Assembly: GCA_036365515.1 (NCBI GenBank)
Contig: CM070874.1
Span: 168,267,297-168,331,296, forward strand
Source of the DNA: Torymus aiolomorphi
Lineage: Eukaryota > Arthropoda > Insecta > Hymenoptera > Torymidae
Reading direction: 5' to 3'
Length of the DNA stretch: 64,000 nucleotides
In this document: one piece after another, positions 10,057 to 51,031 of the stretch
Layout: each line of letters opens with the position of its first letter
Position numbering within the stretch: position 1 is the stretch's first letter
Position numbers and translations under genes: made by a program
Notes under the pieces: model-generated
Told to the model about the DNA's origin: nothing
Seen by the model: only the letters and a program-made list of their open reading frames with translations
Databases searched by the model: none

Positions 10057-10170
10057 GAAAAAAAAAATCCCGGCTGGAGTGGGGAAAAAAAGGATTTTTC
10101 GTTCGAGCGGGGAAAAATGGATTTTTTTTCGTTTGAGCGGGGAAAAATGGATTTTTTTCATTCTTTCCTA
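10057..10170. repeat. Short G-rich 29-bp tandem repeat at the Copia edge
   Basis: About three copies of a unit containing CGTTYGAGCGGGGAAAAATG and a T-run. In layout (T-run, CG, G-rich box) it resembles the longer repeat series in the arms of the 10456-12320 element, so it may be a stray end of a related element. Confidence 0.6.
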
Positions 10171-20953: not shown

Positions 20954-20961
20954 TTGAATAA

Positions 20962-21525: not shown

Positions 21526-21979
21526 CTTGAACGGTTTTAAAGATATTCCGACTAAACAATTAACATCTAAATTAAAATATATTACTAAACCCTAGTCCGG
21601 ATTTCCCCCATGCAATAAGTAGCTGGGTTGATTCATTCTAGCATGAATCGGCAAAACTACTGAAGATTGGGATATACGATCCGTCGAGATTTAGGACTAA
21701 CACAAGTAAAGTGTCCCACAATAGCCTCAGATACACAAGGAAGAACAAGATTAAAAGGATTATGAGGATATAACAGGTATCGTACGGAACAAGTGAGGGA
21801 ACCCAGCCCTCATATTAGCCCTTTTCCTAGGAGTAGATTTCAATTCTTTGTGTAGTTACCGGAATCAAGGCTAGTTAGCATTATAGGTAAAAGGAATGAT
21901 AGATGTCCTGGGGCGACATCCAAAAATTTATAGTTCTGCCCTTACGTGCGAGAAATCTAACCTCTCACGTAACACAAGG

Positions 21980-23173: not shown

Positions 23174-25345
<2,172 letters not shown>

Positions 25346-25562
25346 GGTAGGGCGCGTGGGCGGTGGCTCAGCTTGATCGGCGTCGATGTTGGCGATTAGA
25401 CATTGTGATCTAGTTCCTCAACATAAGGTATTACAAGGATAATAAGAATTAGGAAATTCATACGTCATTCGCTCATACACACAGGGCAACCAACACGACG
25501 GGGTGGGGTGAGAATAGAGAGAAAGGGGTGTCACTCTCTCGCTGGCGTGGTTCGACCCTACC
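25346..25562 (-). other. Gypsy 3' untranslated stretch
   Basis: Between the integrase stop and the part of the LTR that aligns with the right copy. I did not find a convincing polypurine tract on the minus strand, so the exact LTR start is uncertain here. Confidence 0.4.
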
Positions 25563-28750: not shown

Positions 28751-28824
28751 TTGCTCTCACACCTTATTCAAGTCCGCTACTCCGTCTGCAGCTGGCGATA
28801 ACCCCGCCTGACTCTGAGCTCCCC

Positions 28825-29620
28825 CTACATTTGGCGGCGGGTCCGGCTTTTCAGAAGTTCGCTGCATCTCTCCGTTGGCGCGGTGTTCTCACTGGCGAAG
28901 TCTCTTCCTTCGGGCGGTGGCGACGTGCACGGAGATGGCACAACAACGTTCTCCCTTTTTCCTCCTTCCTTCTCTACTTCTTCCTGTGGAGTTACAGCCT
29001 CCCCTTGCATAGTGAGCGACAAATTCTTCCTCGTTCCGTTTGCTCCTAGGCTAGTTGGCTGCGGGCTCTTCCTCTTCCTCGAATGTTCCCTGCATCTCTC
29101 CGTTGGCGCGATGTTCTCACTGGCGAAGTCTCTTCCTTCGGGCGGTGGCGGCGCGCACAGCGAGGGCACAACAGCGCTCTCTCTTACCTCTACCCTCACG
29201 TGTCTCGGTTTACTTGCTTCCTCTCGCTGTCTCTCCTCTTCGCTCTCCCTCTCTTCGCTTCTTCTCTCTTCTTCAGCTGATTTCATCTCCTCCGCTATCC
29301 TCTCTTCTTCTTGCTGCCTCTCTGCTTCGGCTCTCCCCCTCTTCTCCTCTTCTTTCACCGTCTCCTCCTCTCGTCTCCGTACCGCCACTGTTTCCCCACT
29401 GGGCCCGAGGGTGGACACACCCTAGACAGTTTGCGAACGTCACTCCTGGCTGGCCACAGACTTGGCACGTTACGTTCGCAGGCGGTCGTGGCGGTCTCAA
29501 CGGACAATCGGGTGCGATGTGACCCACTTGGTGGCAGGCATAACACTCTCGTTGAGGGCATTTATTTGCTCAGTGGCCTATTTCCTCGCAAATATAACAT
29601 GCTCCTATAAACCGGCCGTT
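28825..29620 (-). pseudogene. Gypsy Gag C-terminal region: zinc knuckles, charged coiled coil, duplicated segment
   Basis: Three knuckles: CYICEEIGH with a TGA directly after the His then ANKC, CYACHQVGHIAPDC, and CQVCGQPGVTFANC (about 29430-29605). Next a highly charged Glu/Arg segment (29230-29400), then two copies of a segment reading VPSxCxxPPPEGRDFASEN and APTERC (near 29090-29180 and 28860-28950). The in-frame TGA in the first knuckle and a shift near 29410 break the protein. Plus-strand Ser/Leu-rich frames here are shadows. Confidence 0.75.
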
Positions 29621-29621
29621 G

Positions 29622-30936
29622 TCATCTCTCCTCCGCGTGCCATCGTCTGCCTGGGGCCCATAATTCCTGCCGCTGTGGTCTTCCTCTCCCTCGGCGTTGT
29701 TCCCCTCCAATGCTTCCGTAGGTCACTGCATTACTAGCGGGCAGTGGGTTCGTGCTCGGTGGAGGTGCTGCTTTCGATGGCGAGGGCGGCGTGGTTGTCG
29801 GTGGCCCGGCTGGCCGCTTCGCGCCCACCGCGGCGACTTCTTCTTGTGTCCTCCCTTCTTTCTTCTCCTTGTCCTTTTTCCTTCTCTCTTTGCGCCGGTG
29901 GTTTGCAGCTTCTCCCTCACTGTCGCTGGTGTCGTCGCCTACTCCGACCATTGCTACGACTTTGGCCGCTCGACTACTCTTGATGAAAGCTGCCCCTTGC
30001 AGCTTCATTTTCTCCATTGGTTTTGGCGACGTGTGGCGGCGATCTATTTCCATCTGACGCTCTAGCTTGACCCCATACTCCTTAATCATCTGGAGCGAGG
30101 TTACCTTCTTATCGAATAGCGCCGCTCGATACTCCGGCAGTATATTTTTATACGCTATCTTCACCAGTTTCTTCTCTGGCGGTGGACGTTTAAAGTGGCC
30201 AACGATATACCTGAAACAGGACAGGAAGTTTGTGAAATTCTCGTTTTTGGCTTGTGTCCTGGCGTGTAACTCCTCCTCAATGTCGGTCTTGTCTAGCGCT
30301 CCGATGAACTGCAGTCTAAATTCCTTCTTGAACTCGCTCCACGTGCTAATGTCGTCTTGAGTCGTGAGATACCATCTCCATGCGCTCTTCGATAGGATGC
30401 TCGGGAGCGCTCGCAATAAGTCGCTATCGGCCATACTCGACTTTTTTCTCCACGCTAACAACATCGTGAGAAATTCCTCTGGCCCGTCTCGGTCTTCTCC
30501 CGAGAACTGTATCCTCCATGCCTGCACCTCCCTCCGGTACTTCCAGTCCCGGCTTGCGTTTCACCGTCGCCACCTAGGCCGTAGCCTCTCCTCATCGCTC
30601 TCGCTGCTACTGCTCTCCGACGAGTTACTATCGTCGCTGCTCTCTGACGATGAGCTGTCCTCCGAGGGGCTACGTCTTCGGCGGTGTCGTTTCGGCTCCT
30701 CCTTCCTTCTCTTCTGTTTCTCACTACGGCTGCCATCTCGTTCTCGCTCTGTCGCTTCTCTTCTTTCATATGTTCCCCTTGGCGTTTGTCGTCTCCGCTC
30801 TCCAACGTCTTCCTCTTCTCGTCTGCATTGGTTCCTCGTCTTCCTCTTCTCGTCTGCATTGGTTCCTCGTCTTCCTCTTCTCGTCTGCATCGGTCGGTCT
30901 TTTCTGATTCTCGCTGGCGGTGCTTCTTTCTTCTGC
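29622..30936 (-). pseudogene. Gypsy Gag, capsid-like domain and Arg/Glu-rich linker
   Basis: The frame 29622-30527 holds a Retrotrans_gag-type domain: WRIQFSGEDRDGPEEFLTML, LLRALPSILSKSAWRWYL, EFKKEFRLQFIG and FKRPPPEKKLVKIAY. Upstream (30530-30936) is a very basic and acidic Arg/Glu-rich linker with repeated RREEEDEEPMQT units in the DNA (about 27 bp, three copies near 30820-30890). This linker is interrupted at 30941 by the Transib; the rest of Gag lies beyond 47981 and the codons join in frame across the 5-bp duplication. Confidence 0.8.
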
Positions 30937-30941
30937 CGCCG
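30937..30941. repeat. Left target-site duplication of the Transib (CGCCG)
   Basis: CGCCG directly precedes CACAGTG at 30942. The same five bases follow CACTGTG at 47977-47981. GC-rich 5-bp duplications are characteristic of Transib and RAG-type transposition. Confidence 0.85.
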
Positions 30942-31715
30942 CACAGTGTGAAAAAAATTTTTTTTTCGTTCGTAAACCTAATATCTCGAGATTCCGTCTA
31001 CCGATTTTGGTCAATTTTGGACTGAATGCACTTAAGGTAATATGGAATAAGAGAAAAATATTTGTAACACCAAAAAATAATTTTTAAAGCCTGAAAATCC
31101 ACTTGAAAATCAGGTATTATCGGTTATTAGCAATAAATCCAACCATACTGTTACGACTCGTGTTTATTTTCACGTATAAACAATGTTGCTTATATATTTC
31201 AGACTAAGAAACAAAAATCAAATCAAAAATATGACCGTCAAATTATATATTTTCAGAAAAATCAATATAACTTGAAAAAATGATTTTTTTCATACTGAAA
31301 AAACAAACATTTCTTTACAAAATACAATATATTGTTAAAGCTTCTTAAACGACTTGCAATAATTAAAAAGAATATTCCTAAGTGAAATAATGCATAAAAT
31401 GTATAACATAACCTTGAAAAAGCCTTTCGATCTGGAAAATGCAGCGTTTATTACTTACTGCTGATTAAATGTTGTATATCAAATTAAATTTTGTTACTGA
31501 CTTTATTAAATACTCTATTAAGCCAAATCTAAAAAGCCTCCCAACCTCTCAAATATGTCTGCAATAATTAAACCAAATAATAGACATAACTTTTTTGCTC
31601 ATCAAAATGTAATCTATAAAAGAATTGTATTTTAGTTTTAATAAATACACGTCTTCAACCCTTCTTAACCCTGCCAATAGCGAGTTTAGTTATGTGTGCT
31701 ATATAAGCAAATAAA
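30942..31715 (+). repeat. Left terminal inverted repeat of the Transib
   Basis: Begins CACAGTGTGAAAAAAA. It aligns as the reverse complement of about 47193-47976 almost throughout, with scattered mismatches and one roughly 30-bp length difference near the inner part. Ends inward near a CTGCCAATAGCGAG block that resembles the neighbouring satellite. Confidence 0.9.
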
Positions 31716-32089
31716 AAAAAAACTTTTAACTATTGTATCAGTTAAGATGTGTTGCTTAGAATCGCTATATTTTACTTTCAATAAGTAAATTATTAACCAA
31801 CCCCTAAGCCCATCAACCACTCAAACCTTGCCTATAGCGAGTTCCAGGTTATGTAAGCAGTAAGTAAATTCAACAAAGCTTGATCCACTGAATACGGTTA
31901 TTTATATACGCTTAACCACGGTTATTTATATACTACTTTCAATGAATTAACTATTAGCCAAACCCCAAGCTCCTTAATCTACCCCACAGAAAGTTACAAT
32001 AAAAATAAAACCTATTTTGCTTTATCCTAAAGGAAGCTTTGTGATAGTAAAAATATTAGTTCATTAAAAATACGATAGGACTGTATTTT

Positions 32090-34550
32090 GAGGTCTCAGC
32101 CCAAGCCCCTAAACCCACCTACCCGACGATAACGAGTTAAAAATCTCAAATGTAAATGCTAAACCCCAAGCCCCTAAACCCACCTACCCGACGATAACAA
32201 GTTACAAATCTAAAACGTAAATACTAAACCCCAAGCCCCAAAACCCACCTACACCACGATAACGAATTCCAAATCTAAAACGTAAATGCTAGACTCCAAG
32301 CTCCTAAACCCACCTAGCCCACGCACAACGAGTTGTAAATCTAAAACGTAAATTCGAAACCCGAAGCCCCTAAACACACCTCCCCCACGCACAACGAGTT
32401 ATAAATCTGAAACGTAAATTCTAAACCCACCTACCCCTCAAATAACGACTTATAAATCTCAAACGTAAATGCTAAACTCCAAGCTCCAAAACCCAGCTAC
32501 CCCACGCACAATGAGTTGTAAATCTAAAACGTAAATTCTAAACCGGAAGCTCCTAAACCCATCTACCCCACGGATAACGAGTTACAAATCTAAAACGTAA
32601 ATGCTAAAAACCAAGCCCTTGAACCCCCTACCCCATGCACAGCGAGTTATAAATCTATCACGTAAATTCTAAACAGTAAGCTCCTAATCCCAACTAACCC
32701 ACGCTCAATGAGTTGTAAATCTATCACGTAAATTCTAAATGTCAAGCCCCTAAATCCACCTAGCCCATGCACAACGACTTACAAATCTCAAACATAAATG
32801 CTATACCCGTAGTCCCTAAACCCACCTATCCCACGATAAGAAGTTAAAAATCTAAATCATAAATTCTAAACCCACCTCCCCCACGCACGAGTTATAAATT
32901 TGAAACGTTAATTCTATACCCCCCTGCCCCTCGGATAACGACTTAGAAATCTCAAACGTAAATGCTAAACCCCCAGCCCCTGAGCCCACCTACTACATCC
33001 ACAAAGAGTTATGAATCTAAAACGTAAATTCTAATCCCCAAGCTCCTAAACCCACCTACCACACGGATAACGAGTTACAAATCTAAAACGTAAATGCTAA
33101 ACACCAAGCCCCTGACCCACCCTACCCCATGCACAACGAGTTATAAATCTTAAACGTAAGTGTTAAATCCCAAGCCCCTGAATCTACCTACCCCACGGAT
33201 TACGAGTTATAAATCTAAAATGTAAATTCTAAACCTCAAGCCCCTAAACCCACCTACCCCACGATGACGAGTTACAAATCTAAAACGTTAATGCTAAAGA
33301 CCAGCCCCTGACCCCCCCTACCCCATGCACAATGAGTTATAAATCTATCACGTAAATTATAAAAATTAAGCTCCTAATTCCAACTACCCCATGCTCAATG
33401 AGTTGTAAATCTATCACGTAAATTATAAATGTCAAGCCCCTAAATCCACCTAGCCCATGCAAACGACTTACAAATCTCAAACATAAATGCTATATCCCTA
33501 GCCCCTAAACCCATCTACCCCACGATAATGAGTTAAAAATCTAAATCGTAAATTCTATACCCGAAGCCTCTAAAGCTACCTCCCCCACGCACGAGTTATA
33601 AATCTTAAACGTTAATTCTAAACCCCCCTACCCCTCGGATAACGTCTTACAAATCTCAAACGTAAATGCTAAACCCCCAGCCCCTGAGCCCACCAACTAC
33701 ATCCACAACGAGTTATGAATCTAAAACGTAAATTCTAAACCCCAAGCTCCTACACCCACCTATCTCACGGATAACGAGTTACAAATCTAAAACGTAAATG
33801 CTAAACACCAAACCCCTGACCCTCCCTACCCCATGCACAACGAGTTATAAATCTTAAGCGTAAGTGTTAAATCCCAAGACCCTGAATCTACCTACCCCAC
33901 GGATTACGAGTTATAAATCTAAACCGTAAATTCTAAACCCCAAGCCCCTAGACCCACGTCCCCACGCACAATGATTTATAAAACTGAAACGTAAATTCTA
34001 AACCCACCTACCCCTCGGATAACGTCTTACAAATCTCAAACGTAAATGCTAAACCCCCAGCCCCTGAGCCCACCAACTACATCCACAACGAGTTATGAAT
34101 CTAAAACGTAAATTCTAAACCCCAAGCTCCTACATCCACCTATCTCATGGATAACGAGTTACAAATCTAAAACGTAAATGCTAAACACCAAGCCCCTCCC
34201 TACCCCATGCACAACGAGTTATAAATCTTAAGCGTAAGTGTTAAATCCCAAGACCCTGAATCTACCTACCCCACGGATTACGAGTTATAAATCTAAAACG
34301 TAAATACTAAACCACAAGCCCCTAAACCCACCTACCCCACGATGACGAGTTACAAATCTGAAACGTAAATTCTCAACCCCATATCCCTAAAACCACCTAC
34401 CCCACGATAACGAGTTACAAATCTAAAACGCAAAAGCTAAACCCCAAGCCCCTAAACCTACCTTCTCAACGGATAGCAAGTTATAAATCTAAAACGTTAA
34501 TTCCAAACCCCTAGCTCCTAAACCCACCTACCCTACGCACAACGAGTTAA
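32090..34550. repeat. 65-bp satellite array with G-quadruplex-capable units
   Basis: About 2.4 kb of head-to-tail units near 65 bp, roughly 35-40 copies, each with CCCCAAG, CCCCTAAACCCACC and TACCCCACG, then ACGAGTTAYAAATCTAAAACG. Units diverge by several per cent and some are shortened. On the minus strand each good unit has four G-runs within about 27 bases, a classic quadruplex pattern. Degenerate units occur outside the array at 31660-31990. No genes in it. Confidence 0.9.
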
Positions 34551-34571
34551 TAAATAAATTTTAAAAAATGT

Positions 34572-34990
34572 TTTTAACGAAATTTCAATATTGCTAAAGT
34601 AGCTATCGTCAATTATAAAAGAGTTCAACTATCAATGTTGATCTTTTTTATTTCGATCCAATTCAATATTGGAAGGGCTCATTTTTTTCTTTGTGCAATT
34701 TCATAGCGAGTCAACGATATCAAAATGAAAAATTTTCAAAACCTCCAAAGATACCTCCACTTTTTTATAGTTTTGTGTAGGCTTTTTAGACAGTTGAGTT
34801 AAACAAATAGTTGTATCTGTGCAGGTTTTGAAAATTTTTTAATTTTTGTATTTTTGCTGCCGATGAAATTGCACAAGAAACAAAATGAGCACTTCCAATT
34901 TTGAATCGGGTCAAAAATAAAAAAGATTAACACGAATTTTTTTTTTTATTTGGCAATATTTACTTTTTCAATATTGAAATTTCGTTCAGA
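34572..34990. mobile_element. Foldback (long inverted repeat) element
   Basis: Two arms of about 180 bp (34572-34755 and 34815-34990) are imperfect reverse complements. Shared blocks include ACGAAATTTCAATATTG, a TTTTTTATTT run, CTCATTTT with TTGTGCAATTTCAT, and AAAATTTTCAAAACCT. The loop is about 60 bp. AT-rich, no genes. It lies between the satellite and the intact mariner. Confidence 0.75.
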
Positions 34991-35154
34991 AAAAAATTTT
35001 TTTGTTCCTTTATGAATCATATTATTATGTGATACCGTTTTTTACGGTATAGATACCATATAAACAAACGATTCTAAAAAATGATATTAATCTTCCCAAT
35101 TTACGCGGTGAATCCACCTTAACTGCAAGTTAAATAGTAAAAATCGTTGCTATA

Positions 35155-36448
35155 CGAGGGTCATTTGACAAGTACCTAGCCTTACCGCCAGATGGTGCCA
35201 CTATCGCACCAGAAATACACTACAGTGCAGTATCTTCCAGTAAACGGTTACAGACAAAATTTCAGCCGGATCGGAGTTGTAGTTTATTTTTGAGAGCGTG
35301 TGAAAGCAAATGTGTCCGTTGATTTTTGAAAAAATGGAGAAAGAACAATATCGGTCGGTGATTCGATTCTTGTTTTTGGAAGGGAAATCGCGCAGTGAAA
35401 TTAAAGAACGCTTGGATGCAGTGTATGGGGATGCTTCTCCTTCGATGGCGACCGTTAAATTTTGGTATAATGAGTTTCAACGTGGTCGTACGTCGGTTTT
35501 TGATAATCCACGCCCAGGTGCTCCGAAAACGGCCACTACGGAGGAGAACGTGACAAAAATACACGATATCGTTTTGTCAGACCGCCGATTAAAGGTGCAC
35601 GAGATAGCTGCGATAGTAGGCATCTCAGAAGAACGCGTGTGGCATATCCTACATGAGATTTTAGGCATGAGGAAGCTGTCACCAAGGTGGGTGCCGCGTT
35701 TGCTGACTGCAGACAACAAGCGCATCCGTGTGACCAGTTCAGAGCAGTGTTTGGAGCTGTTTAATCGCAATCCAAAAGAGTTTTTGCGTTGTTACGTGAC
35801 CGTCGACGAAACATGGATTCACTACTACACTCCAGAGACCAAGGAGCAGTCAAAACAGTGGACCTTACCCGGTGAACCTGCTCCGAAGAAGGCGAAGACG
35901 GTCCCGTCGGCCGGAAAGGTGATGGCCACTGTTTTCTGGGATTCTCAAGGTGTGATTTTTATTGACTATCTGGAGAAGGGCAAAACGGTCACAGGACAGT
36001 ACTACGCCGAACTATTGAGCCGATTTGACGCCGTGTTAGAAGAAAAACGGCCCCATTTGTCTAAAAAGAAAGTGCTTTTCCACCACGATAATGCACCGAC
36101 TCACACTTCTGCACTCGCCACGGCTAAATTGGTCGAATTACGCTACGAACTGCTGCCCCATCCACCGTATTCTCCAGATTTGGCTCCGTGCGACTTTTTT
36201 TTGTTTCCGAACCTAAAAAATTCGCTCGCCGGGAAGAGATTCCACTCCAATAACGAAATAATCGCCGCCACGGAGGCCTATTTTGCAAACCAAGAGAAAA
36301 CATTGTTTTCATCGGGGTTAAAAAAATTGGAACACCGCTGGACCAAGTGTATTCAACTAAAAGGAGACTACATTGAAAAATAAATTTTATTTTTTGTAAA
36401 ATTTTGGTGTTTTCATTTGTAGGCTAGATACTTATCAAATGACCCTCG
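35155..36448 (+). mobile_element. mariner transposon, apparently intact
   Basis: A 1.29-kb element with near-identical ends: CGAGGGTCATTTGACAAGTA at the left and, inverted at the right, CGAGGGTCATTTGATAAGTA. TA duplications are at 35153-35154 and 36449-36450. It carries one uninterrupted transposase frame. Nested in the Transib, upstream of the Transib transposase exons. Confidence 0.95.
35334..36383 (+). CDS. mariner transposase, full length
   Basis: 349 residues from the ATG at 35334, chosen because MEKEQYRSVIRFLFLEGKS is the usual mariner start; an in-frame ATG at 35310 would add eight residues. Two helix-turn-helix regions (RSEIKERLDAVYGDASPSMATVKFW and LKVHEIAAIVGISEERVWHIL), the linker motif GMRKLSPRWVPRLL, and a complete DD34D triad: TVDETWIHYY, HHDNAPTH and YSPDLAPCDFF with 34 residues between the second and third Asp. 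No stop or frameshift. Binds the terminal repeats and performs cut-and-paste movement at TA. May be able to act on this element and on related copies. Confidence 0.95.
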   Translation: MEKEQYRSVIRFLFLEGKSRSEIKERLDAVYGDASPSMATVKFWYNEFQRGRTSVFDNPRPGAPKTATTEENVTKIHDIVLSDRRLKVHEIAAIVGISEERVWHILHEILGMRKLSPRWVPRLLTADNKRIRVTSSEQCLELFNRNPKEFLRCYVTVDETWIHYYTPETKEQSKQWTLPGEPAPKKAKTVPSAGKVMATVFWDSQGVIFIDYLEKGKTVTGQYYAELLSRFDAVLEEKRPHLSKKKVLFHHDNAPTHTSALATAKLVELRYELLPHPPYSPDLAPCDFFLFPNLKNSLAGKRFHSNNEIIAATEAYFANQEKTLFSSGLKKLEHRWTKCIQLKGDYIEK

Positions 36449-36789
36449 TAGTAACCTGTTTATTATTTATCAAATTATGAAACTGCAGATTCAAGACTCA
36501 CGCACAGCAAAGTTTTAAATACGTTTATGTTTATTATTAATACATTTTAGATTGTATACTACTACTGGTAACACTACTAGTAAGTAGTGTTAATTATATA
36601 GCAGTGTAAATATATACATTAATTTCTAAATTAATAATTAAGACGATAAAAGTGTGGTTAGATATGGAAAAAGAAAGAGGAAATAACGAAAAGTAATTGT
36701 TGATTATTTTTATTAGGTTTTCTAAATCGGTATTATTTATTTTTCTAATTCGCTCATTAATTTATTAAAGAAGTGTTAAAAAAAAGAGA

Positions 36790-39700
36790 GGTCGACCAAA
36801 GAAAATTCCACGTATTCGTCATAATAGTGGAAGAAAACGAGAATTTGATATGGAAACTGCTGGTAAAACTACGCGATATTTAATGGCAAAGAAGATTATA
36901 ACATTAGTTGATAACAACGAAGAGTTTCTAGAGTATACTTTAAATCTCTGTCGGACGATCAATAAAAAATCCACTAATAAGGTATAAAACTTAAGTTTTT
37001 ACGGAAACATATGTAGTTGAGATTTATTTGGATTATTTTTTCTTGATACCTTTCCAATACATATACATATACATACTAATGGAATTAGCGATAAAACATT
37101 GTAATTTAAATAGCTTAAAGTACATTTTATTCGAATCGTAATTAACTTTTTGACTGCATTTACGAAAGGGTCACATTGACAATTTAACGAATATCACTAG
37201 AATAATTTTGAGTTCTGTTTAAGGCTAATACAAATATGAGTTATTAATTATTGAAACTATAAAATGATTTTGCTGATACGTTTTTATCACAAAAAATCAC
37301 TGAAAATGTTCCAGAGAATCTTTTCCTAAAATTTTGAGAAAATGAATCAAAGTTTAAGGCGTCTACAATTTTTTCGTCGAGAAAAAGAAAGAGGTCACAT
37401 ATACTATATAAGGCATATATAGGTTTTTCTGAAACGTCCGTATCAATTACATTTTATTATTTGTTTGTGCGTTTGTGCATATTTCTGAAAAGAAAACTAT
37501 TAAGTTTTATTAAGGGTTACAATAGAATGGGATAGAATATAATGGAATAGATAGAATAAGGGTTAACCAAAAATAGTTGTAACAAAAATAAAAAACTGTT
37601 TTAAGACACTCTTTAATGCATAATTTTTGTTCAAAATAATTTAGATTTGTTTTTCGTTTAAAATTTTTCAAGCTGAAAATTTTTATAATAAAGTTTTCAG
37701 ACTGTAAGTAATATTTAATGTATTGAATTTGAAGATATCACATCTTTTCAATAAGTATATGCTTTTTCATTAAAATTAGTGTAGTCAATAATAATTATAA
37801 CAACGATGCAGCTATGTAGGGATACAATTATTAATCTGTATAAAACGTTATATAATTATTGTATTATGGTTATGTAAATAAATTTTTCAACAAGTAATTG
37901 ATTAATATTAATTAAAAAATATTTTTATATCAGAATCATGATAAAGATATGGATGATACCGAATTTGACGAAGATAAAGTGCAAGTGAATCACACTGACG
38001 AATCGGCTTTAGCTTTGTATGTTGAGAGTGATTTGAATAATAAAAGTTATTCATTGATTGCAACTGACTGTCGATTAAGGGGCTTTAAATATTTAACATC
38101 GTATCCGTTTCTCCAAAAAGCCATGGCTAATTGTACACCAGCGAATATAAACTGTTCAGAAGTTGAAGCTGTCGTACCAGTTGAAAATATGCTCAACATT
38201 ACAGCAGAAAGGTTGTGCGAAGCAGCTGCTTCAGATTGGAACTGCGAAGAATTACGTAATGTTGAGTTATATGTTACTTCTGGATTTGACAGTTCTATGG
38301 GACATCTAAATCCACAACAAGGTTACGCTAATACCGATAATATTAATTCGAATACTCAGCAGAATTTATTAGTGATCAGTTGTTTGGTCCAAAAACTTGC
38401 AGGATCAAATAATTGTTCGTGGACAAATCCTATTCCACAGAGTATTCGTTTTTGTAGACCATTAAGGTACTATTAGGATTTTTTTCACTTTTTTTCAATG
38501 ACGAACGAACATTTCTGTTAATTACTTGAATAAATTTTTAAAGTTGAGAGCAGTTTGTTTTTTTCTGTAAATTTTGCGTTTCTGGATTCAACAAAAAAAC
38601 TTTAAATTTTTTATATATAAAATATATAAAAGTTAAAATATACACTAAAGTTTGAATTGATTATTACTCATTTTTGAGAGCCTTAATACACAAAAAAACA
38701 TATAAACTTTCTAAAAGAACAAACTATTGACTATTTGTTAAACTGTAAATATATTTATTGTTCAGCTTGTTATTTATTCTTATCCATTTCTGTATACCTT
38801 AATCAAATTTTAATAACACTTATATCATTTCCCTCCATCTATAAGGATCTCGTTTGAAAAAGAAGACAGTGAAACTATAATAAAAGAATACAATCGATTA
38901 AGCCAAGAGTTTTCTTTGTTAAAACGACATAAATTTCAAATTTCGAATGGAAAAAGAGTGACAGTTAAGTTTATCGTTTCTCAAACTTTGTACGATGGAA
39001 AGTGTGTCAATTGTATTCTTCAGAATAATGCTACAACTAGATGCCCCATATGTGGTGTATCATCACATAAATTTGGTGATTCAACAAAAACTTTTGAACC
39101 ACAAGAAGATTCGTTACATTTAGAGATAGGTCTCCTGCATTGCGAAATAAAAGCTTTTGGATACTTACTGCACCTTGCCTATAGAACGACAATAATGGAG
39201 TGGGATAGAAAACAGCATTTGAAAGGTAACATTTGAAAATAACGTTACGTACTAATAATATTTCAGTTTTAAAATAATAGAAAATTCACTTAGTTTCGTT
39301 AAAGTTCCTTTTTCTATGAATTTGATTAAAAAATTGAAATACAAATAAAATATTTGTGAAAATAAAAAAGATGTTTAATGATGTCAAACTTGATTTTAGA
39401 TACTTTCATTAACATAATCCAAAATTGTACTGAAACATCTAAATATAACATAAATAAATTACATAAACAAGAAAAAAAAAACCGCTGCCAATTCATTGGC
39501 AGGTAGCTTCCTCCAACTAAATTTGATTATGTCAATTATTAATTAGTTACTAAGTAATATTTATCTGGTTGAATTTTATGAAATAGGTTCAAATACGCGA
39601 CTGAATTTTCTAATATGACTTGATTCAAATGGAAGAAAAAAAATTTGTCTAAAATCATCAAATAAATAAGTAAAAGTTAACTCTATCGCACTTTATTTCT

Positions 39701-40909
39701 ACATATAAAGTATACTAATAAGTCTTCGTTGTCATTTCTTTAGTTAACGTGGCTGAAAATAAAATATTCGTTATTAGACGATGAAATTTAAAGTGATATT
39801 TGCGGCCTGCTAGACCAAGAAATACATTTCTTTAGTTTTCAATTTTTTTCTCAAAAACTAATGGATAGAATCGCTTAAAATTTTAACCAATTACCATTAT
39901 ATTGTGTACTACCATGATTTTTCTCTAGCAATCTACAGATTGTTGCCCGAATTATAACGATTTCAAAATAAAACATAACAAATTCTAACCTTAAATATCT
40001 CTTTAATTTATGAAGGAATATTATCGCCCAACGAACTCAGGCAATGATTATATAAAATTTACCTATATACAAAATTTTAGATCGATTGGTTGAAATAAAT
40101 AAATAAATAAATGAGATCAAAATTTCAAAAAAAAAAGTAAAAACTATAACACAAAGTGATTTTAAGAATTAAGATTTACTCACGCACATTATTTATATTT
40201 TTCTAGAAAAGAATTGTATGAAATCCAATTTTCAAATACTATTTTTATAAATTAATTTGACTTTATATGTTAAAATTTAAACTTTTACGACGTGTATTTA
40301 TTAGATGTATTTTTAGAGGATGCAAATCAACAAACTGAAAAAATAAAAAAACAAGTAAACACAGCATTTGGAATAAGAGTTCATCAAGTATGGCAAGGCC
40401 ATGGAACTACTAACACTGGAAATCTAGCTCGCATATGCTTTAATGATCCATTAGAATTTTCTGAAGCTTTAGGAATTGATTTAAAATTGGTTAATAATAT
40501 TGCATTGATTTTACATTTACTTCGAAGTAAAGAAGAAATAGAGATTGAAAACTTTGAAACACTTTGTGGAAAAACATACGAACTAAACTACACGCTTTAT
40601 CCGTGGTCACGGATGTGTCCCACATTACACAAGTTGTTGAAACATAGTAGTGCTATCATTCAACATTTTCCTCTACCAATAGCTTATTATTCAGAAGATG
40701 CAAGCGAATCGTGGCACAAGCTTTATAGAAAAAATTTAGTTTCCCATGCACGTCAAACAAGCAGAAAAGACCGACTCTTTGATACATTTTAAAGGGCTAT
40801 ATACCTTACAGATCTCTTAATTTCATTAATATACATTAATAATCGTTTAAAGGGTCAGCTGCAACATCCAATTACACAAGAAATGAGAAAATATCTAAAG
40901 AATTGGTAA
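36790..40909 (+). pseudogene. Transib transposase gene, at least four exons
   Basis: Exons: about 36790-36981 (basic RGRPKKIPRIR start, donor GTATAA), 37934-38466 (acceptor ATATCAG; GFDSSMGHL carries the probable first catalytic Asp; ends CRPLR), 38846-39225 (LYDGKCVNC, CPICG zinc pair, LHCEIKAFGYLLHLAYR), 40305-40909 (HGTTNTGNLAR, PTLHKLLKHSSAIIQHF, SEDASESWHK with the probable catalytic Glu). All junctions are GT-AG and keep frame. The order matches Transib proteins, relatives of RAG1. A TAA at 40790-40792 comes about 40 codons before the natural end (KNW, stop 40907-40909). LHCEI sits where RAG1 has LHCDI, which may mean loss of the second catalytic Asp if that alignment is right. The N-terminus may be incomplete. 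Confidence 0.8.
36982..37933 (+). other. First intron of the Transib transposase gene
   Basis: AT-rich, GT...CAG bounded, no frames of note. The other introns are 38467-38845 and 39226-40304, also AT-rich and empty as far as I can see. Confidence 0.6.
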
Positions 40910-43745
40910 AAATATCAAAATAAGCACAGTTAAAAGAATGCACATAATTCAATACTTACAATAGTGTTGAATTGTTGTCCAATACGTCATCAAAAATTTT
41001 TACTTGTCTTTTTTATTTACATCAAAAATTATGACAAAATCAATGAAACAATATCTCTTCAACATTTATCAAATGCATGTGTTAGCGTAATGTTTAATAT
41101 TCAGCTGCTTCTAAGATCGACCAAGCTCTCGAGGTTAACAGGACGCGAGCTCTCGTCTTGAGTAGCCAATCAGTTGACGTGTTATTGCCGCCCCCCAAAA
41201 TCGCGAGGCTCTTCGCGAGCTCGTCATCGCGTCGCTATACGCTTTGCGCTCAGTCAGTTTTCGCTCGGAGAGTACGCAAGGGCACTACACTCCGTGTCAG
41301 CTCTCTAGACACACACACACACAATCACGCACACTACAGATTGTAGCACACGGCAAATAATAAAGGCTAGGCGCTGTTTTTTGTATCTAAAGTTTGTGTG
41401 ATTACTGGCAACCCCGACTTCCAAATAATTCCATCCCAACATTAAAAATTTTTTGGTCCTTCGAGCCGGATCGTGTGTGTGTGTAAGCTCATCGAGCGAG
41501 TGACTACGGTGATTAGCAGGCAGTGTCGTCTCTACATCAGTGAGACAAAGCCACCAGAGAGAAAACCCGCAGAAGGCCGTTTTCCGGATCACGGCACGTA
41601 CGCATCAAGCACGAGAACCTTCCACTGCTTCGGAAATCACCAGTCTCTGCTGCATGCCAGCCAGTTTCGCCCCAGACGACGCGGGTAAGCAGCCACTGCA
41701 TCGTCGCACAAAATCGTGCATTTGCTGCAAGACTAAGGCGAGCACCGTCAAAGCAGCTCTCCCTCGTCACCTGCAAGTCTTCTCGACGGGAGTAAGGCCA
41801 CAGCAAGGAACCGACGCCATTTTGGCCGGCTCGCGAAGGCCGGCTCGCGAATTCACCGGCGCGCACGCGTGCTCACGCAACAAGGCAGTCACTCTACCTT
41901 ATCGGCGCAGCACTCAACACGAGCATTCTTGCTCGACGAAGAGGATCGTCTCAGCGATTGCACTCTCAGTAGCCGCTGCTCATCATCGTTGCCAGTCCGA
42001 CGCATCTCATCGCCACATCGGAGCGAGGAGGTAGGCGGCATTACATTCGCAGAGGACGGCATCAAACAGACGCTCTTCGCATTCTCGCCGCTTCGCTCTT
42101 TACACGAGCGGCGAGAGAATTTTCTCAGTAGAGAACAGCGCCGAGCAGGCTCCTTCGCATCCTCGCCGCACGCTCTTTACACGGACGACGAGGAAATCTA
42201 CCAGCAGGTAAATAGCGTTGTCTCGCCCTATACACGCGGCCAGAGAGAACTCTTTCCCTCTCTCACGTTCACCGCTGCTGCGTCGGCTGCCGACACGCGA
42301 CCATCGAATGCGCGGCAGAACCTGCGAGCAGCCGACTACACTAACGCGATCGGCGCCATTTTAAGCACTGCCAATCCTGCCGCTGCCGTCGATGCCAATC
42401 GGTATAGAAGACGAAGCCGCACACGCTCTCAAACTGGCGTCGCTACGGAAAGATGTTTTTTGACACTGAAATGCAAATTCTTGATTGACGTCAAGACGCT
42501 CACTGCCGCGCAGCCCCTCGTTGCTGCTCCGACGCACACGCTGTGCAATTGCGGCTCTTCTACATCAACTAGAACTTCACTACGCCTGCGCCGCGCTGCT
42601 ACAGCTACTCGGAATTCTCCCTCGCCCTTGCTACTAGATCTTCAATTCATCAATACCTTGCTCTCCCGTCGTGCACCAGCATCTGTCCAGCGACTCCAGA
42701 TATGCTTGGCAGCTCCAGACTACGTCTTCATCATTGCAGCTGACAGGTTATGGGGAGGCTCTGGAGCATCTGATGCGAGAGAGCGTTTCAATTTATAGCC
42801 CTTTTCTAATTCAACTATATTTAAAGTCAGACCTTCTGTTACATGTAATTCTTCAATGTCTTAAGTTTGATTCCATCTGTTAAAATTGAATAGTGCAGAT
42901 TAGTAAATGCACTGTAATTTTTCTTCTCTTTTGGATGAATTAAATTTGTCCAATGACTATTAAGTAAAATCTTATATAAGATCACTGTTTAGCTCTCAAT
43001 TTGTTTAAGTTCAGAATTAATTTAAGTTCAGTTGTAAAGCTTTAAAGTTAATTTGAGTTGCCGCATTTTCTTAATGTTACAGTATTTTGAAATATTTAGA
43101 ACTAAATAAACTTTAGTTTATATCTCTATCACTATAATCAGGTTTGTTCACCCGAAACTTATTATTGTATCGTATTTTCAGCCACAATCAATCAAAGAAC
43201 AGCACATCTACCTCTGCAGTGATCATCCCGCCACTTAAGTATCAGTGCAGCCCTCGATACTGCACACATCAACGGTTAAGGTAACATTTTCTCTCATGCT
43301 TGTCTCGACATCGATCCCAGGCTCTCCTTGCAGTTTTGTTTTTTTTTTTAGATCGTTTCTGGTTGGTATTCAGGTTTGTTTAATAACCTCGTAGTGCACT
43401 CTCGAGCAGACCTTTATGAGTTGCAACCGTTCACTCCAAGTATCTATGTTAGTTGATAATCACTTCATCTCAATCGGGTGGTGATAGTGAGAGCTTCAAC
43501 CTCTCACTGCACAAAATCTCTTTCGCATTCAACCTTCATTGTCTGCATACTTCTAAGAAAGTGATTAGTCAATTTAAGAGTTTTGGTTCTCTAACTTAGA
43601 CATTTTGATCTCCATTTAGAATAATAAATTTAAAATGCAAATTATAATGATAAGCGCCTTTCAATTCGAGTTAAGTTCTTAATCTATCTAAAGCTAGTGT
43701 TCTTCTGTGTTTCAACTCGCCTCTTGAAATCTTAGATTCGTCGAC

Positions 43746-46690
43746 ATGGAGGAGCTTTACTCCAAGCAGTTACATTCTCAAGTCAAAGTCGCTAATGCCT
43801 TTGATAATTTCAAGAAAAAGGGCAAAGCAAGTATGTCTAAAGGTGCGGCAAAGGCGCGCATGGACGGTTTAGATACCGTTTATTTTGATTGCAAAGCCGT
43901 TCACGGCGAAATTCTCCAGCTGTCCAAGCTAGATCGCAAACACGAATACTTTACATCTAAATTGGCTGACGCTATCAAAGAGTACTATTTTGATGTAATG
44001 GATGAGTTCAATGATTTCATTTTAAGTCTCGAAGCGACTTCAGCTGCCACAGCTTCCACGGGCAAGCTCTCTGTAACCCCTCAAGCTCCCGCTCAGTCAA
44101 TCGACGTGTTGAAGCATTACTCAAAGCTTCGTTCGCTCAATCTTTGCCTCAGGTCGAAATACCAAAGTTCTCCGGTAAGCACTCTGAATGGGGGAACTTC
44201 AAAGATCTCTTTCGTTCCACTATTCATCAAAGGGAGGACTTATCTCAGGTGATGAAGTTGCTGCACCTAAAGACTCTTCTCACCGGTGAAGCCTTGGACA
44301 AGGTAAAGTCCCTCCCTACCAAAGATGAAAATTACCAGAAAGCTTGGGATAATCTAACAAAGTACTATGAGAATAGCCGTAGGTTGGTCGATTCTTATCT
44401 CTCTGATTTCGCCGCAATAAAGCCTATGAAGAGTGAGACCTTGTCAGAACTCAAGAGGCTCATGAAAGAAACGATGACTCCTTTAAACGCTTTAGCCGCT
44501 CTCGAGCAGCCAGTTGAACAGTGGAGTTCAATTTTGGTGTATTTTACAGTCAGTTGCTTTGATGTTAGTACTCGCAAAGATTGGGAAAGGCATCAAAACA
44601 ATGCAGTTGAAACTCCAACATGGACTCAATTAAAGGCTTTTACAAGCACTCAGCTTCTCACCTTAGAAGCAGTAGAGAGAGGCTGTAAAGCTAGTTTGTC
44701 GATTTCTTCAAAAGCTTCGGCTCAATCTCAAAAATCACCAAAGGATAATAATCTCTCGTCCCACAACGTGATCGCCTCCAATCAGAAAACTTCCAATAAA
44801 ATCAATCAATCAGAGCAACTCTGCTCCTGTTGCAAGCAATCACATTACATTGCACGCTGCGACTCCTTCAAGTCCAAGCCTATACAGGAACGCAGAGATT
44901 TCGTGAAGCAATCCAATTTATGCTTCAATTGCCTCGACAGACACCTCATCCAAGTTTGCAAGTCAGACAAGAGGTGTTTCACGTGCAAGGGGAAGCATCA
45001 TACCCTGTTACACATTCAAACCACTGACGGTCAACCCTCAGACGTGCCTACCGTACACGTCGCTACTCAAATCACGATGTCACCTTCTCTTACTCTTCGA
45101 AAAGCTGAAAGTGCATCTCACTTGACCAAAGTGCCTCGTAATATCTTCAAGCTGGTACTGCTAGCAACTGCAAGAGTTTTCGTCGAATCTCCAAATGGCT
45201 TTAGAGTGCTGGTCAGAGCTTTAATCGATCAATGCTCTCAAGTCTTGATAGCTTCTCAGTCTTTATGCCAAAGATTGAAGCTAAATATAAGCCCCTTCGC
45301 GTGCCTATCCACGGAGTCGGCAGCAATGCAGCAGCTGTCTCATCTGAGGTCGTTCAGTTTTCCATTAAACCGCACTTCCAGTCGGATTTCTCATGTGAAG
45401 TACAGGCTCTAGTACTTCCTCGCATTTCGGCCTATTCTCCCCCTGCGTTGGAGGGGAATCTAGAACTGTCACATCTAGACAATTTAGACTTAGCAGATCC
45501 AAATTTTATGGAAAAGGGACATATCGACCTTCTCTTAGGTGCTTCAGTTCACGCAAAAATAATAGAAGGTAGAATTATCAGAGGCAAGGCCAACGAACCT
45601 ATCGCTTCACTCTCGTTGCTAGGTTGGCTGATCTCGGGCGAGTGCCCTGTGCCAGAACCAGTCTTTCCAGCGGAGGCAACCACTTCTCACTGTGTGCAGC
45701 TCCCCCCACTCGATCAGATGATCGAGCGTTTCTGGCTGGTGGAGGAAATACCAAAACCAACCTTGCTTACAGCAGAAGAGCAAGAGTGCGAAAACCACTT
45801 TGTGGCTACGCACTCTCGAGACCCCTCAGGACGCTACGTAGTTCGCCTGCCCTTCAAGACGCCAACGAACTCTCCCCCATTATTAGGCGACTCGTACACA
45901 GCCGCTTTTCGCGCTCTGCAACGTATGGGGGCTCGCTTCGCAAAAGACGAAAAGCTCCAAGATGCGTACTTGAAATTCATGCAAGAATACGGACTTTTGA
46001 ATCATATGATTCTTGCCTCCGAAGCACCTGTTCGTAAAGACGATTCTGAATCCTTTTTCTTGCCACATCATGGCGTTTGGAAGGAGGCTAGTACGACAAC
46101 CAAACTGCGCACAGTTTTCAACGGTTCCGCTGGTACTAAATCAGGAAAATCTCTAAACGACCTGCTTCAAACGGGCCCTAATCTACTCCCAAATCTTGTT
46201 GATTTAGTATGTCGATGACGCATCTACAAGTACGTTCTCTCTGCTGACGTTGAGAAGATGTACCGCCAAATACTAATTCACGATGAGGATCAGCATCTTC
46301 AGTCAGTCTTGTGGCGCGTCGACAGCGCTCTTCCTGTAGATACCTTTCGCTTACGCACTGTCACTTATGGCCTCATTAGCTCAACGTTCATCGCTCAACG
46401 AGTACTGAAGCAATTGGCCTCTGATCATGAAGCAGACTTTCCTCTCGGCGCTCAAGTACTCAAGAACGATATCTACATGGACGATGTGTTGTCGGGAGCC
46501 CACTGTTTGAAAGAGGCTAGGAAAAAGCAGGAGGAAATAATCGATATACTCAGAGTGGGCGGCTTTTCAATTCGAAAATGGTCTTCCAACGAAGCTGAGC
46601 TTGTAAAATGGCTCCCTTCTGAAATGTTAGCTATAGATCCCCTCATTCTCTTCGATAATTCCACATCGTTAGCAATATTGGGAATTTCTT
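43746..46690 (+). pseudogene. BEL/Pao gag-pol (Gag, protease, reverse transcriptase)
   Basis: ATG at 43746. Gag has a DUF1759-type region (PQVEIPKFSGKHSEWGNF, then AWDNLTKYYENSRRLVDSYL) and Cys-rich knuckles (CSCCKQSHYIARC, CFNCLDRHLIQVC, CFTCKGKHHTLLH). The protease site reads ALIDQCSQ where DSGSQ is usual, probably inactive. DUF1758-like and Pao RT regions follow: LDLADPNF, LLGASVHAKIIEG, LRTVFNGSA, SADVEKMYRQILIH, RTVTYGLISSTFIAQRVL and NDIYMDDVLSGA with YMDD intact. Breaks: frameshifts near 44130 and 45290, TGA at 46216-46218, stop at 46699. Confidence 0.88.
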
Positions 46691-46770
46691 GGCGCCCTTA
46701 ATGGCGCTCTTAATCTGGCATTAGCTTCAATTGATAAATTAACATTGTCTGCTTTGGCTTAATAACGCAG

Positions 46771-46779
46771 ATGAGGGGG
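46771..46779 (+). promoter_or_regulatory. Putative polypurine tract of BEL/Pao
   Basis: ATGAGGGGG directly precedes TGTTGGGGAAATAG, which has the form of an LTR start. In LTR elements this tract primes plus-strand DNA synthesis. Confidence 0.5.
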
Positions 46780-46843
46780 TGTTGGGGAAATAGAAAAATT
46801 GAGAACGATTAAGAACCGGTTAGGGTCCTGATAGAATTATCAT

Positions 46844-46912
46844 CCCAGTGGCGCAAATGGTAGCGTAGCTGCCCGGTATGCAGAAGGTTGTCGGTTCGAT
46901 CCCGACCTGGGC
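46844..46912 (+). tRNA. tRNA-like sequence (tRNA pseudogene or SINE head)
   Basis: CCCAGTGGCGCAAATGGTAG has an A-box form and GGTTCGATCC is a good B-box. CCCAG and CTGGG can form an acceptor stem, GTCGG/CCGAC the T-arm, and CTGC/GCAG a four-pair anticodon stem. The anticodon loop reads CCGGTAT, lacking the U at position 33, so it is probably not a working tRNA. A T-run terminator follows (46918-46924). A tRNA-derived SINE is the main alternative. Confidence 0.55.
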
Positions 46913-46924
46913 CGTTATTTTTTT

Positions 46925-47192
46925 CGTTCTCATTTTTTCATTCTATACGTTTACCTTTCCTTTCCTCATCCTTTAAAAATTCTTGACTGCACTTTAAAAT
47001 TATTAAAATAATTGGGCATTAATATCCTTGACTGCTTTACTCTAATAGCTTAGAATAATTAGAGATGTGTAAGTATACACATGTAAAAAGAATAAAATCG
47101 ATGATTGATAAGTTAGGCACCTTCCTTATCCTTTATCGATTGCCCGTAATAGCCATTAGCTTCATTTATTAATTTCTTTTTATTTGCTTATA
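46925..47192. other. AT-rich spacer before the right Transib repeat
   Basis: No gene seen. Lies between the tRNA-like sequence and the inner end of the right Transib terminal repeat. Confidence 0.5.
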
Positions 47193-47976
47193 TAGCACAC
47201 ATAACCAAACTCGCTATTGGCAGGGTTAAGAAGGGTTGAAGTCGTGTATTTATTAAAACTAAAATACAATTCTTTTATAGATTACATTTTGATGAGCAAA
47301 AAAGTTATGTCTATTATTTGGTTTAATTATTGCAGACATAACCTTAAACTCGCTATGAATAGGGTTTGAGAGGTTGGGAGGCTTTTTAGATTTGGCTTAA
47401 TAGAGTATTTAATAAAGTCAGTATCAAAATTTAATTTGAAATACAACATTTAATCAGCAATAAGTAATAAACGCTGCATTTTCCAGATCGAAAGGCTTTT
47501 TCAAGGTTATGTTATACATTTTATGTATTATTTCACTTAGGAATATTCTTTTTAATTATTCAAGTCGTTTAAGAAGCTTTAACAATATATTGTATTTTGT
47601 AAAGAAATGTTTGTTTTTTCAGTATGAAAAAAATCATTTTTTCAAGTTATATTCATTTTTCTGAAAAAAATATAATTTGACGGTCATATTTTTGATTTCA
47701 TTTTTGTTTCTTAGTCTGAAATATATAAGCAACATTGTTTATACGTGAAAAGAAATCGAGTCGTAACAGTATGGTTGGATTTATTGCTAATAACCGAAAA
47801 TACCTGATTTTCAAGTGGATTTTCAGGCTTTAAAAATTATTTTTTGGTGTTACAAATATTTTTCCCTTATTCCATATTACCTCAAGTGTATTCAGTCCAA
47901 AATTGACCATAATCGGTAGACGGAATTTCGAGATATTAGGTTTACGAACGAAAAAAAAATTTTTTTTCACACTGTG
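47193..47976 (-). repeat. Right terminal inverted repeat of the Transib
   Basis: Reverse complement of 30942-31715, ending TTTTTTTCACACTGTG at 47976. The inner part contains an extra roughly 30-bp block (ACCTTAAACTCGCTATGAATAGGG region) absent from the left repeat; it resembles the satellite core. Confidence 0.9.
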
Positions 47977-47981
47977 CGCCG

Positions 47982-49397
47982 CTGCTATCCCTCTCACTGC
48001 TACTTCGTGTGGGGCGTTCTTCTCTGCGTTGCTCGGCTGGGGGGTGTCTTTTTTTCTTGTTCACCTCCCTACGATGTGCTTCGTAATCTCTCCCTCTGGC
48101 AAACCGGAGCAGGTTATTGCAAGGCTGGCTGGCTATGTTGAATCCTTCTTGTATCTGTCGCCTAGGCGGCGTAATGTTTTCCCGCCGTGGCGTCACGCAT
48201 GGCTTGCATCCGGCTCCCGGTGGGGCTGCGTCTTCCATCGACACTCGTCGTCTTGCTTGGGCTTTCTTCGTTGCCAGTTGTGCCGCAACTTGCGTCAGCT
48301 TCGCGCTCGTGTACGCGTCTACCTCGGTGTCGTCGCTCGTCGTCCCTTCGCCATTGTTCCACCCGTCGGCATACAGACTGGCGTTAATCGATGTTGACGG
48401 TCGGGTCGGTGGTGCTGCTGGCTGTGGCGTTGTCGGTTGCATTGTTGCCAGCGTGGCGGTTGAGGTTGTCGGTTGACGTGGCCGCGGCGTCGGTTGCGTC
48501 GACGAAACTCCATGTCCGGGGCTTATTCTGGTGGCCTGGTCTCTGTGGCGTCGTGATCATCCTCACATACTGTACCCCCAACGTGCTCAGCTGCCAGCTT
48601 CGTGCCTTTCCGGTCCAGTAATTTCTCAGCTCGGGGGTGACGTTGAGGTATTGAGGCAGGCCTGACACGGTTCGGTGCTCCTGGCGGTGGTAGCATTCAT
48701 CACAGGTAAGGCGGCTGAAGTGTAACTGGCGGTGGGCGTTCCTCGCGTCGTCAGTCCGGAGGTCGATGTCACCGGTTCCACTGCTCCTACGATCTCCTGG
48801 ATCTGCATCTCCATTAAGCGCGAGCGTAGTCTCTCATCATCGCCGGTGGTGGTGGTGGTACTCTCCCCCGTCTCCTTCTGGTTGGATTTTGGCTTCCGCC
48901 CTCGTTTAGTTTTAGGCTGTACTACCAGCTCCTCCTCATTTGTTGACTCCCGGCCGTAGGGTGCTCCTTCCTGTTCATCCTCCTCGTACCATGGAATGTC
49001 CTTCAGCGGGAGGTCAGCTTCCCTCAGACTTGCTCGCAGCAATCTGTCTTGACGTTCACCGATGTCGCCTCGAGTGCTCAGCTGCTTGTCCCTCAGTGTT
49101 ACTTTCAGTTGTTGGGGTGACAGGTGTATAACTTCCAAGTTTATGGCCCTCACCTTCCGGATCTTCAGAAACTTCTTCATGGTTGTTTGATGGTTGATCT
49201 TCTTCTTCACCTCTCAGCGGTTGGATTCGTTCGCGCCGATAATTCGCACTACAATAATTATGCACAACGCGGAGATGGGCGGTGGTGTTTGAAAACCCAA
49301 GGTACATGCGGGCAGCCTCAAAAGCGCCTTGAATATCGCTCGAGGGGTCCACGAACGGGATGAATGTACCAATTACTTTCCCTCCTACTTCCTCCAC
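47982..49397 (-). pseudogene. Gypsy Gag N-terminal region with SAP domain
   Basis: Three overlapping frames in Gag order. 49056-49397: VIGTFIPFVDPSSDIQGAF and YLGFSNTTAHLR. 48626-49210: HLSPQQLKVTLRDKQLSTRG, a SAP-type DNA-binding helix pair (about residues 29-63 of that frame), then a basic KTKRGRKPKS stretch. 48384-48668 and 47982-48442: Pro/Thr-rich linker. No clear ATG for the first frame (GTG at 49397). Frameshifts near 49100, 48640 and 48420. The frame leaving at 47982 continues at 30936 once the Transib and one CGCCG are removed. Confidence 0.7.
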
Positions 49398-50145
49398 GGT
49401 GGCACGAGTTCACAAAAAAAATTAACTACGAAGTGACTAAAATTCAAAAAAGAATACACTAGAACTTTTCAGTTTCTTTCACACGCCACGCCAGCGTGAG
49501 GGTCCTTTGGGGCATGTTTCCACGCAAACGGTCGTGTCTCACTGGTGGTGAGGGATTTTATTTTATACTTGGTGGGATATATACTGTTTTATAATTTATA
49601 TATGTATATCTAAGTAAGTTAAATCTCTAGAATACCTTCCTTTTTCCACCTAAAATGGTCAAAAACCTCGGCACGTAACAAGATGTATGGATTCGGTTAC
49701 TGCAGACCTCGGTCAACTCCGAAACGGTGGCGCAACAAGAAAATTATTTAAATTTTTGTTGTAATTTGGCAAATTTTCTGGGCGTACGAGGGCGGTGGCA
49801 GTGAGACACGCCGTTCTTCGTAGAACACTATAGCAATTTCGCAAAAAGGTCACTTTCAGGTCGGCCGAATCGCAACCTGACTATCGCCTGAATTGAAGAG
49901 CCGCTGCTCAAAATGGTGGCTGGCAGTAGCGCACTATTCGCGGCGTGCACTCGGGCTCGCTCTCCCCCTCTCTCTCTCTCGTCCACGCACACACACACAA
50001 CAATTGAACTTTTTAAATAAATATAGTAAAAAAAAAGTAATACTAGTATATGTCGGTGCGAGTCCGCTCGACTCACAATTTGTTCCCTCTCTTGCGTGTC
50101 TCGGCTTGTCGATTCGCGTAATTTTCCCTAATGTCGGTGTCGGCC
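49398..50145 (-). other. Gypsy untranslated leader
   Basis: Between the primer-binding site and gag. No credible gene. It contains two imperfect direct repeats with GAGTCGAGCGG-like text near 50060 but nothing I can name. Confidence 0.5.
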
Positions 50146-50162
50146 CCACGTTGCTGGCGCCA
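50146..50162 (-). promoter_or_regulatory. Gypsy primer-binding site
   Basis: On the minus strand, TGGCGCCAGCAACGTGG starts two bases inside the LTR end (...CAACGTCACA, then AA). TGGCGCC matches the 3' end expected for a tRNA-Lys type primer. It fixes the element's orientation as minus and the LTR boundary at 50165. Confidence 0.8.
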
Positions 50163-50901
50163 TTTGTGACGTTGCGGATTTCCCCCCCCCCCCTCTTCAC
50201 AACGTTCTAACTCGCCCTGAGGGCTTGAAATGCGCGATAAACTCTCGCGCCCGCTATAAATTCCCCACGACTCCCCTCTCTCTAAACACGATACTGCGCG
50301 AGCGCGGTCAGAATTTTTATTGAAGGGCGCCAGACCACGGTTACGACGCGTTCTCTGCTCTTCCTCCTCTGCCTGGCTATGGACTCTCCTTCCTCTGGGT
50401 GTGGGCGGTGTTGCGACGGCCTGGGGCGGCCGATACCCTCGGTGACTAAGGAAAATGCGCGGGTGACTACACAGAACACAACACTCAAAATAAAGTAACA
50501 ACAAGGCAGCTAGCGATTATGATCTTTAATAGCACTGATAAATCATTTCTCCGGCGGTCAGCGTTGCACGCAGTCACTTTTGGCGGAACGCGGTTGACAA
50601 AATGGCCGCTGGCGGGTATTCACGCGCACGCAAGAGAGAACCGCCTCTACGTGCTCCCCGCTGGGAGCTATCGCTCGCACTACACACAAGAAAATTGATA
50701 AAATTGTGGGTCGGGGGGGGGGGGGCAGAAACAAAGTTGCCTCCCGACGACAGTAAACCAGTTTCTTACCGATGCACGCCTGTCGCTCGTATGGACCTTC
50801 AACTCTCTCTCTCGCTCTTTCTCTCTCTCTCTCTACGGTGGTTTACAGCGCGAAGCACAAATTGGCGGTGGACAGCGATCCTCTTTTCCTCTGGAGCTCA
50901 C

Positions 50902-51031
<130 letters not shown>

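Follow-up and report, generated by a model that had tools for sequence, protein, structure and literature searches.

A low-copy Transib element with long terminal repeats in a Ty3/gypsy retroelement of Torymus aiolomorphi

Within a 64,000-nucleotide stretch of the Torymus aiolomorphi genome (GenBank assembly GCA_036365515.1, contig CM070874.1; C2:168267297-168331296 in our numbering, hereafter the window), we analyzed a 17,035-bp element that lies between two copies of CGCCG and is a member of the already known Transib superfamily, to which the enzyme responsible for antibody-gene rearrangement is related. It is very probably a low-copy Transib with long terminal repeats that was inserted by cut-and-paste into a CGCCG site of a Ty3/gypsy element and later received nested insertions. 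A sequence-only reading of the window had described a 17-kb Transib with heavy cargo; this interpretation was partly supported, in that the Transib identity stood, on transposase matches, heptamer ends and a GC-rich 5-bp duplication, but 17 kb as an intrinsic, cargo-bearing size was not supported. The genome searched comprised 1.08 Gb in 21 contigs.

The heptamer ends and the 5-bp duplication were confirmed to the base. The left terminal inverted repeat (30942-31721, plus strand) and the right one (47173-47976, minus strand) both start with CACAGTGTG when read inward, and the heptamer CACAGTG stands at both outer ends, exactly as had been read from the letters, with repeats then put at about 775 bp. 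Alignment gave 780 and 804 bp, respectively, at 94.3% identity over 806 columns (gaps counted), with 18 of 778 aligned bases substituted and five gap events, the largest of 24 bp. The left boundary was placed by alignment, by a sister copy (L043) and by 12 other ends in the genome, and the right by sequence reading and alignment. The flanking CGCCG duplication, also noted earlier, was present in exact copies at 30937-30941 (sequence reading and self-alignment) and 47977-47981 (sequence reading and alignment), and the empty sites that were read had a single 5-mer. The proposed likeness to a V(D)J recombination signal held for the heptamer but not for the full signal. Specifically, a nonamer separated from the heptamer by 12 or 23 bp was rejected, because the best scores at spacers of 11-13 and 22-24 bp (4/9 in the left repeat, 6/9 in the right) were no better than chance, 14% of left-repeat positions scoring at least 6 by the same rule.

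Both flanks proved to be parts of one minus-strand Ty3/gypsy element, recognized by domain matches and alignment. One part (23174-30936) holds a long direct repeat, integrase, reverse transcriptase and gag, while the other (47982-52257) holds N-terminal gag-like frames and the second long direct repeat; these direct repeats (23174-25337 and 50165-52257) were 87-92% identical. Named relatives of its pol, among 120 listed of 246, were mostly from Trichogramma, and also from Copidosoma and Diaphorina, names that by themselves would make a chalcidoid wasp the probable source. The empty sites that the sequence-only reading had suggested looking for were sought with the two flanks joined through a single CGCCG as the query (40 of 73 candidates scored). 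Among 42 matches listed, two were the element's own flanks, four were partial pieces and 36 crossed the junction. The seven of these that were read were all ungapped at the junction over the 65 columns shown, with one 5-mer each (CGCCG in five, CGCCA in one, CGCCT in one). Matches that cross the junction with one 5-mer prove the insertion into the gypsy element. A relative's gag protein was discarded as a spanning sequence, since it aligned to about 155 bp from the junction and never across. Separately, a gypsy match at C3:166627157 begins at the insertion point (query 348-592) and may represent a third insert or a broken copy.

The left repeat had 17 matches in the genome, two of them the element's own; of the others, 12 extend to the end and three stop short of it. 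When the 12 were checked for ends lying elsewhere than at CACAGTG, every one carried the heptamer, exact in eight and one base off in four. Outside the heptamer, seven had CGSCG (CGCCG or CGGCG) as the 5-mer and the remaining five a 5-mer that differs from it at one base; CGSCG is thus a sharper form of the CNNNG target given for Transib in the available text of PMC7764229. At E 1e-10, no terminal-repeat match was present in 22 sampled 10-kb stretches of contig C2, two of which adjoin the window, or in eight 3-kb loci. Two pairs of ends, C3:79492737 with 79524785 and 123648177 with 123740668, were rejected as single simple elements because their flanking 5-mers mismatch.

The element encodes a transposase in five plus-strand exons, with GT-AG borders and matching phases, that yield 542 aa before a stop. 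A spliced gene had been recognized from the sequence and does exist, but its bounds moved from 36790-40909 to 36664-40789. Exon 1 (36664-36692, with an ATG start) is tentative and was placed from its donor site and phase; exon 2 (36771-36981) carries an RGRPKK motif; exon 3 (37934-38466) and exon 4 (38846-39225, which also has a CPIC motif) each contain a catalytic Asp codon (38288-38290 and 38994-38996, respectively); and exon 5 (40317-40789) contains the catalytic Glu codon (40706-40708). These residues (D199, D308 and E515) align with D126, D225 and E436, the catalytic acids of Hztransib from Helicoverpa zea in the available text of PMC6941560, under a constant, inferred offset of 17 residues to the structure-chain numbering. 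Against solved structures, the hand-joined exons 3-5 matched the H. zea Transib transposase (E 1.6e-41), whereas the E value for amphioxus RAG1L was 0.69. For a profile, the window protein was combined with 24 of the 32 hits that it had in the database; this profile matched the H. zea Transib at E 3.5e-147 and, far more weakly, RAG1L (1.4e-12) and vertebrate RAG1 (2.9e-12), so that the Transib/RAG1 match called for by the sequence-only reading was obtained. The closest database hit came from Brassicogethes aeneus (43% identity over 98%).

The sole break seen in this gene was an in-frame stop near the C terminus (exon 5; 40790-40792), past which the similarity to relatives continues. Given this premature stop, the window copy has probably lost the capacity to make a full-length enzyme of its own. 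Transib transposase similarity was found in at least 87 stretches genome-wide (80 of 990 candidates scored), some of which are exons of one gene, and among the matches listed only the window gene and that of the sister copy exceeded 90% identity. Some of the listed stretches lie in frames of about 590-644 aa, and the genome is rich in Transibs.

The remainder of the element is heterogeneous. Behind the left repeat is a tandem array of about 38 degenerate 65/66-bp units (32100-34555, plus strand; about 2.5 kb), followed by an imperfect palindrome of about 440 bp found by self-alignment (34563-35002). Next comes a nested mariner of 1,294 bp (35155-36448, plus strand), with an open transposase frame (35334-36380) and its TA duplicated at 35153-35154 and 36449-36450. 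Beyond the transposase gene is a BEL/Pao retroelement fragment of about 5.6 kb (41079-46701, plus strand), comprising a gag with DUF1759 (PF03564), a partial reverse transcriptase (PF00078) that scored under the Pfam cut-off (27.4 versus 29.6 bits), and a stretch resembling a long terminal repeat (41079-41441) with edges placed by eye. Together, the mariner and the BEL/Pao fragment account for about 6.9 of the 17.0 kb. Between the latter and the right repeat is a tRNA-Thr(GGT)-like sequence (46841-46915, plus strand), with inverted flanking words noted by eye, which is perhaps a tRNA-derived short element.

Part of this structure was also present in the sister copy L043. L043 has the same heptamer and repeat, a shorter version of the array, and the palindrome, but at the exact site of the mariner it has one TA and no mariner. 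Beyond that place, from about 2420 bp inside the end, it contains a long frame in two inverted, almost identical copies; a neighbouring Penelope-like frame in L043 scored 26.1 bits for reverse transcriptase and 20.4 bits for GIY-YIG, both just below the Pfam cut-offs. At 10.7-12 kb inside the L043 end are stop-free transposase exons, 91% and 93% identical to those of the window and in the same strand orientation, which, we infer, belong to the sister; its last exon was not among the transposase matches listed. Because the sister is without the mariner at its exact TA, and because about 5.6 kb is BEL/Pao fragment, 17 kb as an intrinsic size is not supported. The heavy cargo of the sequence-only reading is real as content, but its genes are those of other mobile elements, and the unusual length seems to come largely from nested jumping genes and not from useful cargo. 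The long repeats, on the other hand, are traits of this Transib family itself, as is the array that follows the left one.

An origin of the array by expansion of a terminal-repeat motif was not supported by alignment, in that the scores were no better than those of shuffles: the unit scored 29 against the left repeat (shuffle mean 32; 233 of 300 shuffles reach 29) and 36 against the right (69 of 300 reach 36). The stretch directly inside the left repeat did resemble the unit (0 of 300 shuffles reach its score), and words like ATAGCGAGTT occur in the repeats and the array, with 11 on the plus and two on the minus strand within the element as compared to one on both strands of the other 46,955 bases. 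These two observations leave room for a weaker link between array and repeats.

A second group of repeat ends, at about 70% identity, includes C3:99011423, which has the same type of end and a spliced transposase in the same orientation, broken by stops (five pieces, 58-75% identity, 2.6-13.3 kb from the end). Its opposite repeat was represented by a 294-bp piece about 18.7 kb away, which matches positions 324-615 of the C3:99011423 end at 97% identity; the outer 323 bp were not found, and some 3 kb between went unread. Long repeats thus occur in more than one Transib group in this genome.

The main rival explanation is that of a giant Transib that moves the BEL/Pao genes, mariner and array as a unit, which we regard as improbable. 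It would account for all contents lying inside intact ends with one duplication, and C3:99011423 may likewise be large, judging from the distance between its end and the opposite repeat fragment. In the case of the mariner, however, the single TA in the sister refutes it. Moreover, mariner and BEL/Pao genes are typical of elements that move themselves, and the fragment here ends at a partial reverse transcriptase. A second Transib end (L044; C1:109593916, 78% identity) is the one observation that leans toward shared cargo, in that a frame for a BEL/Pao-type gag lies 6.1-7.7 kb inside it (C1:109585917-109593916, local positions 304-1848, minus strand; Pfam match to DUF1759, E 2.3e-34). No transposase match was present within 8 kb of this end. 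At E 1e-6, the L044 DNA had no match to the window beyond the repeat, and its gag thus looks like a different BEL/Pao insert. The L044 gag slightly raised the small weight that we give to a cargo-carrying element and lowered, by as little, our high confidence in a Transib that was filled after insertion.

Apart from L044, several points weigh against the latter account. The right end of L043 was not among the 17 repeat matches, and for the BEL/Pao piece a nested origin is likely, where for the mariner the sister copy shows it. Only two elements, that of the window and a short one at a locus termed L055, were seen to have the same 5-mer on both sides, and the C3:79492737 and 79524785 flanks differ (TGGCG versus CGCCG, plus strand). 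Finally, exon 1 of the transposase was drawn from a splice site and phase alone.

That the element is instead a RAG-like transposon (RAG1L/RAG2L, ProtoRAG type) is very unlikely. Heptamer ends, the 5-bp duplication and profile similarity to RAG1 would all fit, but the profile match to the H. zea Transib was about 135 orders of magnitude stronger than that to RAG1L, and no RAG2-like gene was noticed among frames of at least 90 aa, with none in the six scanned against Pfam and the rest having had no RAG2 profile search. Nothing was found in favour of chance inverted repeats or an assembly artefact, and both are refuted by the empty sites and by the heptamer shared with 12 other ends.

For a low-copy Transib filled by later insertions, the following sequence of events would apply. 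As in other members of the family, the transposase would bind the ends and cut at the CACAGTG heptamer, leaving hairpins on the flanks, as in Hztransib and RAG, and the ends would be joined 5 bp apart, generating the 5-bp duplication. The mariner then landed in the window copy, as shown by the sister, and a BEL/Pao element likely did so too; nested insertions and the stop codon would mark its decay into a copy that is presumably inactive at present.

The insertion site was used twice. Another copy of the gypsy element (L055; C4:87198880-87199720) contains, precisely at this CGCCG, a Transib-type miniature element about 750 bp long, with CACAGTG ends, a CGCCG duplication and, by eye, long inverted repeats, but with a sequence behind the heptamer that differs from that of the window element. 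No gene was noticed in the miniature element, and no search aimed at one was made. L055 was found with the insertion site itself as the query and alone is no evidence of an excess there. A strict choice of CGSCG by long-repeat Transibs could conceivably make a fixed base in the gypsy gag region a reusable landing pad, an idea that we hold as tentative, and the transposase might use arrays and long repeats as platforms with multiple sites. The clean bounds of the element, together with its sister ends, its empty sites and the sharpened CGSCG consensus, make it useful for the study of RAG-related target choice, and it is a warning that a Transib that looks giant and laden with cargo can owe its contents to other mobile elements.

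Elsewhere in the window we noted broken mariner frames (1109-1972, by eye), a copia-type retroelement (7532-10167), a non-LTR retroelement with reverse transcriptase (17328-21591), and a Helitron-like element (57460-63156, minus strand) with a PIF1 helicase, a Helitron N-terminal domain and an OTU protease domain in two stretches; self-alignment also showed repeats at 61340-61879, their period being about 51 bp.

Among known systems, RAG1/RAG2 and RAGL (ProtoRAG) share heptamer-type ends, a 5-bp duplication and distant similarity of the catalytic protein (available text of PMC7204232), but the protein match of the window element to them is far weaker than to Transib, and its nonamer is no better than chance. 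Transib1 of Drosophila simulans and D. melanogaster, from the same superfamily, is 3,030 bp long (available text of PMC12230796). The sequence-only view that known Transibs have short repeats was borne out for Transib-type miniature elements (13-27 and 36-57 bp; PMC7764229 and PMC9033116) and for TransibSU-1_PM (13 bp; PMC4411706), in the portions of these sources available, but not for Hztransib, with repeats called 'long TIRs' (terminal inverted repeats). No Transib with 0.8-kb repeats or a length of 17 kb appeared in the literature searched, which did not cover the founding paper (Kapitonov and Jurka 2005), and the repeat length is therefore not claimed as new. The L055 miniature element has the same ends, duplication and site as the window element, in about 750 bp and with a differing sequence behind the heptamer. 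Hztransib (PDB 6pqn and others) has the same transposase family and DDE acids, and a flank hairpin has been reported for it (available text of PMC6941560). Its 'long TIRs', in the available part of PMC1852546, come with a 5-bp duplication, GCTCG, and with no repeat length. It is 3,518 bp long according to the same text, as compared to 17,035 bp here, and has a deduced product of 489 aa versus 542 aa before the stop; unlike Hztransib, the window element combines five exons with a 65-bp array and nested elements.

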